Positions 1,020-4,154 of a DNA stretch of 64,000 bases are shown here, in pieces. Position 1 is the first letter of the stretch, and each line of letters starts with the position of its first letter. Made by a program: the position numbers and the translations under genes. This stretch comes from Ilumatobacter coccineus YM16-304 (GTDB lineage: Bacteria; Actinomycetota; Acidimicrobiia; Acidimicrobiales; Ilumatobacteraceae): positions 310,001 to 374,000 of the forward strand of contig NC_020520.1 of NCBI RefSeq assembly GCF_000348785.1, in the 5' to 3' direction. Below the pieces are notes generated by a model. That model made no database searches. It saw nothing but the letters and a program-made list of their open reading frames with translations, and was not told the DNA's origin.

Positions 1020-2057
1020 TCAGTGGTCGGAGAGGTCGACTTCGTTGACCATCGGTGAGCCGTCGGCGAAGCGTGCGAGGTTCGTCGCGAGCAACGATTC
1101 GAGGTTGATCATGTAGCGATCGAGCGACACCGACGTGTGCGGTGAGAGATACAGGTTCGGGGCGTCCCACAGCGGGTCGTCGGCCGGCAGCGGCTCGACC
1201 TGGGTGACGTCGAGCGCCGCAGCGCGCAGATGACCCGATTCGAGCGCGGCGATCAGGTCGGCCTCGACGACGTGCGCACCGCGGCCGACGTTGCAGAAGA
1301 TCGTGCCCTCGGGCATGGCGGCGAAACGATCTGCGTCGAACAGGTCGATCGTCGTCGGATTCGACGGCAGCGTCGACACGACCACGTCGCAGCGCCGCAA
1401 CATCTCGTCGAGGTCGGCGGCGGGGAACAACTCGTCGACCGCATCGTCGACGTCACCTGGCTGCGCGCTCGCTCGTGTCGCCAGCACGGTCATGTCGAAC
1501 GCCCGGGCGCGCCGAGCGACCTCGCGGCCGATCGAGCCGAGCCCGGCGATGCCGATCGTCCGCCCCGTCGCCTCCGTGCCGAAGACTCCCTCCCACTCAT
1601 GGCGCTGTTGCTGCTGATCGAACGTGCGGAGGTGCTTCCAGATCTGCAGGACGCGAGCGATCACGAACTCGCCGATACCGGCGGCGCCGAGACCGCTCGC
1701 GTTCGTGAGTCGCACTCCTTGGCGGTGCAGCGCTTCGAGGTCGTACTTGTCGTAGCCAGCGGTGATGCTCTGGATCCACTGCAGCCGGGGCATCAGTTCG
1801 TCGAGACCGTCGGGAAGATCCAGCCCGATGGCGACGTCGGCGCGTTGCCATGCGGCGCGCATCTCGTCGGTGATCTCTGGCGTTTCGAGCCCGGTCGTGT
1901 TGCGCCCGTTCTGGTGCCCGCGAGCGGAACGGAGCTCCTCCGACTCGGTGTACGGCGTCCACACGACCTCGGCGCCTGGGTGCGCGGCGTCGATCACGTC
2001 GAGCAGCGACGGCGACGGTTCGAACCCGATCATGACGGCGACGACCATCGAGCTCAT
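1020..2057 (-). CDS. D-isomer-specific 2-hydroxyacid dehydrogenase (NAD(P)-dependent)
   Basis: 345 residues. The Rossmann motif IGIAGLGSIGREVARR lies near residue 170. The family catalytic residues are visible as Arg in NVGRG, Glu in DVTQVEPLP and His in LSPHTS. Enzymes of this family interconvert 2-hydroxy and 2-oxo acids (glycerate, phosphoglycerate, formate relatives). The ATG at 2057 overlaps the stop of the upstream fumarylacetoacetate-hydrolase-family gene as ATGA, so the two are translationally coupled; an ATG 24 bases further upstream is less likely. Substrate probably relates to the FAH-family partner and the PrdB-like gene upstream (inference). Confidence 0.88.
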   Translation of the reverse strand: MSSMVVAVMIGFEPSPSLLDVIDAAHPGAEVVWTPYTESEELRSARGHQNGRNTTGLETPEITDEMRAAWQRADVAIGLDLPDGLDELMPRLQWIQSITAGYDKYDLEALHRQGVRLTNASGLGAAGIGEFVIARVLQIWKHLRTFDQQQQRHEWEGVFGTEATGRTIGIAGLGSIGREVARRARAFDMTVLATRASAQPGDVDDAVDELFPAADLDEMLRRCDVVVSTLPSNPTTIDLFDADRFAAMPEGTIFCNVGRGAHVVEADLIAALESGHLRAAALDVTQVEPLPADDPLWDAPNLYLSPHTSVSLDRYMINLESLLATNLARFADGSPMVNEVDLSDH

Positions 2058-2908
2058 GCGTGATCTCCGACTCGGATGCAACGATTCGTGATCGTCCCGA
2101 TGCCGGCGATGGTGGACTCGACCAGATCGCCGTCGGCCAGGAAGTTGCCGGTCGACCCTCCGACACCGGCCGGGGTGCCGGTGAAGATCAGATCTCCGGC
2201 CGCCAGCGTGGTCACGTGCGACAGGTGGTTGATGAGTGTCGGAACACCGAAGATCAGTCCGGACGTCGATGCGTTCTGGCGAACGTCGCCGTTGACGCTG
2301 CAGGTGATCGCCAGGTCGTCGGGGTCACCGACCTCGTCGACCGACACGACGACCGGCCCGATCGGTCCGTAGGTGTCGAATGACTTGGCCAGACCGAAGT
2401 GCGGTGGGTTGGCGGCGAACTGCATCCGCCGATCGGAGACGTCCTGACCGACGGTGAGGCCGGCGACGTGGTTCCACGCGTCGGCCTCGGCGATGTCTTT
2501 GCCGCCCGGACCGATGACGACGACCATCTCGACCTCGTAGTCGACGAAATCGCTTCGGAGTTCGATGGTGCTGTTGGGTGCGCAGATGCACGACGGGAAC
2601 TTGGTGAACACCAACGGCGTCGACGGCGGCTCCATGTTGCTCTCGGCCGCGTGATCGCTGTAGTTGAGGCCGATGGCGAACACGTTGCGAGGCCGCGGGA
2701 CCGGGCTGAGGAGCGTCGCATCGTCGAGCGAGCCGGTGGGGGAGGCGTCGCCGAGGCGTGCGGCGAGCGCTGCGAGTCGTTCGGGTCGTTGCAACGCCGC
2801 CATCGGGTCGGAGCTCAGCGAACCGTCGCTGATCGTCTCGAGGTCGACGTAGTCGTTGCCGGTGACGAGCGCGGCGCGCCCGTCGACGTTGGCGAGTCTG
2901 AATCCCAT
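2054..2908 (-). CDS. fumarylacetoacetate hydrolase family protein
   Basis: 284 residues with the FAH fold signatures: FAIGLNYSDHAAE, DYEVEMVVVIG (acidic metal ligands), GQDVSDR, KSFDTYGPIGP and TGTPAGVG. Family members hydrolyse or decarboxylate beta-diketo or 2-oxo acids using Mg2+ (acylpyruvases, 2-hydroxyhepta-2,4-diene-1,7-dioate isomerases, oxaloacetate decarboxylases). It lies 82 bases downstream of the PrdB-like gene and overlaps the next dehydrogenase gene by 4 bases, so the three are probably one leftward operon. The short N-terminal extension matches the bacterial FahA/UGL type. Exact substrate unknown. Confidence 0.88.
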   Translation of the reverse strand: MGFRLANVDGRAALVTGNDYVDLETISDGSLSSDPMAALQRPERLAALAARLGDASPTGSLDDATLLSPVPRPRNVFAIGLNYSDHAAESNMEPPSTPLVFTKFPSCICAPNSTIELRSDFVDYEVEMVVVIGPGGKDIAEADAWNHVAGLTVGQDVSDRRMQFAANPPHFGLAKSFDTYGPIGPVVVSVDEVGDPDDLAITCSVNGDVRQNASTSGLIFGVPTLINHLSHVTTLAAGDLIFTGTPAGVGGSTGNFLADGDLVESTIAGIGTITNRCIRVGDHA

Positions 2909-2990: not shown

Positions 2991-4154
2991 TCAGTCGGGC
3001 GGGCGGTGTGCCGGGGCCATGTAGAACCACATCGGGAACGGCGCCTCCTGCTCCTTCATCGCTCGGCGTGCAGCGTTGATGGTCTTGCCGGCTTCGGTGG
3101 TCTCGTAGAACCAGGCCTCGACCGCACGGCTGCCGGGAGGCGGGCCGTCGACCAGTTCGAGCGCCGCTTCCTCGTAGTACGAGCGGATGTCGTGCACCAC
3201 TGCGATGGTGTTCTTGCCGGGCAGCGGATTGTCCTTCCACGAGGCGCCGTCACCCCACTGGTGGAGGATCGAGAGTGCGTCGGGGATGGTGTCGGCGTCG
3301 ATGACGCGGCCGACCGAGGTCACGCCACGCTTCGCGACCGCACGGTTGTAGGCGGCGCGCAACCCCTTCGCTTCGTCGACGCTGGCCGGAAGGTTCGGGT
3401 CGAAACGGGGAGGGATCGCGCACGAGATCGGCGTCTCGTCCGCTTCGATCACCACTGGATGGGTTTCGAGCACCGGGCCGGTGGCGTCGAGGAGCGCGAA
3501 CGCTCGGTGCAGCACGTCGGTCTGGAAGTCGGCGTCACCGGGACGGCCGAGCGGGCGGCCGAGGGGAAACTCGCAGTAGAGCGCTCGTGGCGGCGCGATC
3601 TGCTCGGCGACTTCCTTCATCGACGCGAGGACGATGGTGGTGAGGCCGGCTGCTTCGAAGACGTGGGCGAGCGTACTCACGGTACGCGTGCAGAGCGGTC
3701 AAACAGGGGTGAGGATCACCACGTCGACGCCGTCGGCCTGCATGTCGGCGGCGCACGCCGGGCCGGTGTCGAGCCGGAGTTCGCTCACCGTGTCGGGCTG
3801 ATTGCCGGCGAACGCGTAGTGGCGCGGCGCGACCTCGCCGATCACACCGGCATCGGCCAGCTCTTCGAGGCGGTCGATGGGGTACACCACGTTCACGTCG
3901 ATCTGGAACCCGGTGCGGTCGAAGTTGGGGCTCCAGTGTCCGAGCACGAGATTGCGGTCGGCGCGGTCGAGCGATCGATAGCTGGTGTCGCCCTGCGTGA
4001 ACTTCTCGTCGTCGGGCCGATGGAGCGCCGCCGAGGTGACGATGGCGACTCGCGCCTCGGAGAGGGGCTTCGTCAGCGGGTTGAACGCGCGCTCGTCGAA
4101 CTCGGGAACCGGCGTGGTCGCCCCGAACTCGCGCATGGTTGCATCACCGGACAT
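2991..4154 (-). CDS. PrdB/GrdB-like reductase, candidate selenoprotein with in-frame TGA (Sec152)
   Basis: Read leftward from the ATG at 4154 (AGGAG ribosome site 8 bases upstream), the frame is open for 151 codons, meets TGA at 3701-3699, then continues in the same frame for 235 codons to 2991. Translating TGA as Sec gives a 387-residue protein with VVILTPV-U-PLCTRT, a UxxC redox motif. Both sides match the D-proline reductase PrdB / glycine-betaine reductase GrdB family: an N-terminal IVTSAALH, VVYPIDRLEELADAGVIGEVAP, an ADGVDVVILT strand directly before the redox residue, and after it an AGLTTIVLAS strand. In PrdB the Sec sits at this same place (LLTAGUGTC). A hairpin follows the TGA (3671-3687). 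It is first gene of a probable operon with FAH and hydroxyacid dehydrogenase genes. Alternatives: a true stop with a pseudogene, or a TGC-to-TGA sequence error. No Sec machinery is visible in the window. Confidence 0.75.
3671..3701 (-). promoter_or_regulatory. candidate bacterial SECIS element with its UGA codon
   Basis: Reading leftward, TGA (3701-3699) is followed by 11 bases, then a perfect 6-bp stem GCGTAC (3687-3682), a 5-base loop CGTGA (3681-3677) and GTACGC (3676-3671). The loop starts 17 bases after the TGA and has G as its second base. Both fit the published bacterial SECIS consensus (apical loop 16-37 nt downstream, a G among the first two loop bases). The stem is short; folding was judged by eye. 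Confidence 0.55.

Follow-up and report, generated by a model that had tools for sequence, protein, structure and literature searches.

A long PrdB-like gene with an in-frame TGA in Ilumatobacter coccineus, and its predicted selenoprotein

What might a gene related to a reductase subunit of amino-acid fermentation be doing in Ilumatobacter, an actinobacterium taken to be aerobic, and does the TGA in the middle of it stop translation or specify selenocysteine (Sec)? Both questions are raised by a locus of Ilumatobacter coccineus YM16-304 at positions 2991..4154, on the minus strand, of a 64,000-nucleotide stretch of DNA (hereafter the window), which covers positions 310001-374000 of a single-contig genome of 4.83 Mb. 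The frame runs from an ATG at 4154 through 151 codons to a TGA at 3701-3699 and continues through 235 further codons to a final TGA at 2993-2991. With the first TGA (3699..3701, minus strand) read as Sec, a product of 387 amino acids is obtained in which Sec is residue 152, and among the 80 relatives retained for comparison, conservation spans the whole of this product. A first-pass annotation had described the same codons and the same single TGA, leaving the strand unstated, had read the surrounding residues as VVILTPV-U-PLCTRT and had expected gene callers to give two fragments. Translation returns the same residues, and a mechanical list of open reading frames does contain a 151-residue and a 229-residue part. 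As ordinary calling of open reading frames splits the gene, it is easily missed.

Decoding of the in-frame TGA

The TGA could in principle be what the standard code makes of it, a real stop, created by a sequencing error or by decay of the gene, and the two entries in the mechanical list would then be fragments. This explanation is opposed by the relatives of the gene. A scan of genome contigs yielded 213 of them, and the best 80 of the 213, with 60-79% identity to the window gene, were retained; the closest named ones are Ilumatobacter and Acidimicrobiales MAGs. The column of residue 152 holds TGA in all 80, which come from separate genome records. Moreover, when these relatives are compared with the window gene, the difference rates at codon positions 1, 2 and 3 are 0.226, 0.190 and 0.508 before the TGA and 0.239, 0.174 and 0.518 after it. 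Since the two patterns are alike, selection at the protein level appears to act on the downstream part in the same way as on the upstream part. Together with the conserved hairpin and the Sec machinery of the genome described below, this leaves the fragment explanation with hardly any probability.

A survey of the class gave a wider view of the same column. Among 395 genomes, 131 match the family profile and 54 have a full-length copy, taken as more than 400 bits and counted by eye, two of these copies being cut or split by contig ends (genomes G184 and G185). One TGA lies within the match in 52 of the 54, and the column, read directly in 34 of these 52, is TGA every time. The remaining two copies, from a single genus (genomes G158 and G194), have no stop and carry Ala at the column, with the codons GCG and GCT; the protein can thus persist with neither Sec nor Cys at this place. 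The first-pass annotation had proposed asking whether homologues have U or C there; TGA is universal among the 80 relatives, and only 2 of the 54 full-length class copies, those with Ala, depart from the expected pair. In a phylum sample of 396 genomes, eight have a copy above 400 bits, six of which belong to the same class as the window genome; one of the two from outside it has TGA and the other Cys (TGC). The Cys155 codon (3690..3692, minus strand), which supplies the C of UxxC, is invariant in a 32-row alignment and is also retained in the Ala and Cys copies. Both Ala copies (L132 and L133) have lost the hairpin, and selA was not found in their genomes.

Some further copies deserve separate mention. 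A divergent longer branch related to the long family (L137 and L138) also has TGA, with the residues U-PLCSGAV and U-PACTRAV. Copies with 60-67% identity occur in records titled Chloroflexi or Dehalococcoidia (L056, L099 and L100), either by transfer between phyla or by mislabelling of MAGs. A TAG within a short copy of another genome was considered as an amber Sec codon and rejected, because the TAG proved to be a stop further upstream, and the column itself is Cys.

The second line of evidence is a bSECIS-type hairpin at 3671..3687 of the minus strand (GCGTAC-CGTGA-GTACGC), whose first base lies 11 nt past the last base of the TGA. Zhang and Gladyshev are said to have described in 2005 bacterial SECIS elements at about such a distance from UGA, with a G early in the loop. 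The consensus, GCGYAC-CGTGA-GTRYGC, begins eleven bases after the TGA, and all six pairs form (G-T allowed) in 79 of the 81 sequences made up of the 80 relatives and the window. These sequences are related to one another and comprise 64 distinct 45-nt stretches. Under a null model in which synonymous codons followed these genes' own usage (500 runs), a mean of 0.4 and a maximum of 3 of 81 sequences were fully paired. The serine codon within the stem is AGT in 65 of the 65 sequences that have Ser there, and AGT makes up 6% of Ser codons elsewhere in these genes. Furthermore, the third position of codon 157 and the first of codon 161 vary together in 80 of 81 sequences (T-A in 39, C-G in 41, one mismatch), a swap that also alters residue 161 between Thr and Val or Ala. 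On a quick tree built without codons 157 and 161, the two swapping positions changed 10 and 9 times; well-supported branches offer three informative pairs, all three concordant, which is too few for a test. The complete stem is also present in 35 of 35 additional TGA copies from genomes of the class and the phylum, a set that includes the window's own gene, and the two Ala copies and the Cys copy form 3, 3 and 2 of the six pairs. A search of the whole genome for the pattern TGA-N16-CCGTGAGT returned only two genes, both PrdB-like; it proves little, because a reversed control also gave two matches.

The machinery for Sec insertion is present in the genome. A tRNA-Sec scores 66.5 bits and has the anticodon TCA; selA (413 bits) and selB (275 bits) are both above their cut-offs and overlap each other; and selD (369 bits, at 2441028-2441951) has an in-frame TGA of its own, in GAGUGCK. 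Downstream of the selD TGA lies a strong hairpin whose loop differs from that of the PrdB-like genes. The 64-kb window itself contains no tRNA gene and no Rfam match at the gathering threshold. Across the class, selA occurs in 50 of the 52 genomes with a TGA copy and in neither of the two with an Ala copy, the base rate being 275 of 395. All the genomes among these that lack it are incomplete MAGs (64-80%): completeness is 79% and 70% for the two with a TGA copy, and 80% and 64% for the Ala genomes. As the two Ala genomes come from one genus, they count as at most one event. The search for selA, selB, selC and selD proposed by the first-pass annotation has therefore turned up all four, and its main claim, a selenoprotein with UxxC, is borne out by the conserved TGA, the hairpin and this machinery.

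On this comparative evidence, residue 152 is almost certainly Sec. SelB carrying Sec-tRNA would bind the hairpin just past UGA 152, so that Sec is inserted and translation is not terminated, a step that the comparison of relatives supports. In bacteria, termination and Sec insertion compete with each other, and a mixture of products is compatible with the present data; the UGA might thus act as a regulatory switch, with a 151-residue product as the usual one and the full-length protein made only when selenium is plentiful. Such a short form would end just before UxxC and would have no redox centre, and the family is conserved along its whole length, both of which make the switch an improbable explanation. 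A full-length selenoprotein is the reading followed in the sections below.

Relation to PrdB and GrdB

Judged by its sequence, the window protein is a member of the GRDB superfamily. It matches PF07355 (GRDB) with 41.8 bits over residues 8-149, against a gathering cut-off of 22, which upholds the placement with GrdB and PrdB made in the first-pass annotation. The likeness to GrdB (PF07355, TIGR01917/TIGR01918) consists in passing this cut-off. However, the match covers only positions 200-345 of the 347 in PF07355, so that the first ~200 residues of GrdB have no counterpart here, and no GrdE-type gene was found in the genome of the window gene. The score with TIGR01918 is 60.4 bits, below the cut-off of 65.45, and the match starts at profile position 198. 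The best NCBIfam match is TIGR04483 (PrdB), with 137.3 bits over residues 17-222, and two relatives score 141.8 and 120.5 bits with the same model. This PrdB-like domain, encoded at 3489..4106 of the minus strand, also gives the matches to Rossmann-type folds described below; the Sec of UxxC falls in the same column as that of PrdB.

These matches make it necessary to consider whether the protein is a genuine PrdB, the subunit of D-proline reductase, occurring in an actinobacterium. TIGR04483 is indeed the top NCBIfam match, and among the matches listed, annotated PrdB proteins of plasmid records are 33-37% identical to about half of the protein. Against a curated cut-off of 300, however, 137 bits fall short by more than half. 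Annotated PrdB from Enterococcus, Terrisporobacter and Peptoclostridium have 237-241 residues, whereas the window protein has 387, and they read U-GTCHR where it reads U-PLCTR. None of the three has the additional C-terminal domain, which begins at about residue 225 and is a feature of the family of the window protein. A tree, whose rows used frames found by script and which came with long-branch warnings for all the groups given here, separates the three PrdB, together with three GrdB-like rows, from this family and the remaining rows, with a support of 94/96. It groups the long form together with a support of 69/70, and two divergent longer copies join the long form at 92/95.

The partner protein bears on the same point. 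In D-proline and glycine-type reductases, a pyruvoyl subunit (PrdA/GrdE, PF09338) holds the amine as a Schiff base. The title of a 1999 paper by Kabisch et al. names the pyruvoyl group. The gene prdA lies beside the annotated PrdB in two of the three cases, the exception being that of the Peptoclostridium plasmid, whose gene table is incomplete. A profile search with PF09338, a model that recognised a true PrdA used as positive control, found no PrdA-type gene in the genome of the window gene. Across the class, PF09338 is present in 24 of 395 genomes and in none of the 54 with a full-length copy, the lists being compared by eye. Since the pyruvoyl subunit was not found together with the long form, the long form should not work by the Schiff-base activation of amines used in D-proline and glycine-type reductases. 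By these sequence comparisons, the window protein is very probably not a D-proline reductase, and a true PrdB is accordingly very unlikely. In three class genomes (L142, L143 and L145), a PF09338 gene was seen near the frame of a GrdB-like selenoprotein with UGTGTRC, and systems of the glycine-reductase type seem to occur in the class.

Structure prediction adds to the description of the two domains. The AF2 model has a mean pLDDT of 91 and places residue 152 between a strand (145-149) and a helix (155-168), in keeping with the earlier remark that Sec would sit at a strand end. The whole model matched no PDB fold at E <= 0.001; VIA-align returned generic Rossmann-type chains over residues ~29-237 with Z <= 7.7, and a sequence search of the PDB with the window protein gave a single match, at E 0.065. 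The C-terminal, mostly helical domain (residues ~225-387; 2994..3482, minus strand) has about 160 residues and a mean column identity of 69%, against 73% for the whole protein. Searched alone against the PDB, its model (mean pLDDT 82.6) gave a best Foldseek E of 2.7 and a best VIA Z of 3.1, and neither a known nor a new fold is shown for the domain as modelled. Pfam gave no match for the C-terminal domain of the window copy; with 32 C-terminal halves, five families appeared, each in one member only, with a best E of 0.01. In genome G090 (L135:3147-3732), an open reading frame comprises the C-terminal half only (residues 190-384), as a stand-alone domain, a broken gene or a fault of assembly.

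The same genome contains a second PrdB-like selenoprotein gene at 1392039-1392656 (L021:1390-2268), encoding 292 amino acids with UPVCHQT. Both genes have TGA, followed at an equal distance by a hairpin with an identical loop. The second protein is 37% identical to the window protein over residues 18-224 and belongs to another branch of the tree, and it is without the C-terminal domain. The first-pass annotation had named neither this second gene nor the C-terminal domain, the hairpin and the missing pyruvoyl subunit.

Genomic surroundings and proposed function

The first-pass annotation had sought a clue to function in an operon with two genes downstream on the minus strand. A gene of the fumarylacetoacetate-hydrolase (FAH) family (2054..2908) follows 82 nt after the selenoprotein gene, and the inferred ATG of a gene of the D-2-hydroxyacid dehydrogenase family (1020..2057) overlaps the FAH stop (ATGA). 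This clue has not lasted, as neither is a conserved neighbour: of the 80 relatives, 6 have an FAH gene nearby and none has the dehydrogenase, many of the loci being cut short. No constant partner gene emerged from the 81 loci (80 relatives and the window). An AMP-binding CoA ligase is found in 23 of 81, enoyl-CoA hydratase in 16 (immediately upstream and on the same strand in 9 of the 76 loci whose upstream DNA is available), sulfatases of two clusters in 12 and 8, and an acyl-CoA-dehydrogenase-like cluster in 12; a family of the metallo-beta-lactamase fold is also recurrent. The neighbouring genes were called with a rough script and many of the loci are truncated, so the surroundings suggest a loosely catabolic context and nothing beyond it.

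The window protein is probably a stand-alone, thiol-driven reductase acting on an organic electrophile, a reading by analogy to which a probability of about 0.6 is given. The N-terminal PrdB-like domain of Rossmann type would present Sec152 immediately ahead of a helix, and Cys155 follows three residues later. By analogy with GrdB, PrdB and other UxxC proteins, the selenolate of Sec152 would attack the electrophilic substrate, Cys155 would resolve the selenium adduct as an Se-S bond, which a low-molecular-weight thiol or thioredoxin would reset. In place of the pyruvoyl subunit, the domain fused at the C-terminus may build the substrate site or close it. In a bolder version, put forward tentatively, the helical domain would replace PrdA/GrdE within one polypeptide, and an electrophile other than an amine (C-X, C-O or S-linked) would be reductively cleaved by Sec as part of aerobic catabolism.

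Alternatively, the protein could be a selenoprotein in which Sec serves to reduce peroxides or disulfides or to sense redox state, as in thioredoxin-like UxxC proteins, with no cleavage of a carbon substrate. Differences in neighbours between loci are what a general redox protein would show, and many thiol-redox selenoproteins carry UxxC (PMC2398784). Against this stand the homology, which is to GrdB and PrdB and to no thioredoxin family, and the recurrence of CoA-ester, sulfatase and acyl-CoA-dehydrogenase family genes near some loci. A thiol-redox role is therefore rated as the less likely of the two, though as a serious competitor, and reduction of an organic electrophile is preferred.

Place among PrdB-type selenoproteins of the ocean

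An undescribed aerobic relative, as the first-pass annotation called it, is too strong a description. According to two ocean metagenome reports, selenoproteins of the PrdB type rank among the most abundant: the Sargasso Sea data of 2005 held 42 PrdB selenoprotein genes, the third most abundant known family (PMC1088965), and the GOS data of 2008 held PrdB with 235 Sec and 110 Cys members and UxxC (PMC2398784). PrdB-type Sec proteins of the ocean have thus been in print since 2005, and the kind is already known. Those proteins and the window gene, compared by description only, share the PrdB type and UxxC; length, C-terminal domain, host and partner are not given in the accessible text of either report (PMC1088965, PMC2398784). 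In a search of openly available journal articles, none of the papers listed dealt with the long form, its C-terminal domain, its hosts or the missing partner. What appears to be new here is the long, partner-free PrdB-like form.

Since 2005, the PrdB-type proteins of the ocean have carried the name of an enzyme of Clostridial amino-acid fermentation. For the long-form branch, the evidence given here indicates that these proteins cannot act in the manner established for D-proline reductase. Hosts can now be named for this branch (Acidimicrobiia, and Chloroflexi by the titles of a few records), and its architecture and hairpin are described as well. The question of function for such PrdB relatives has thereby become testable with one gene.
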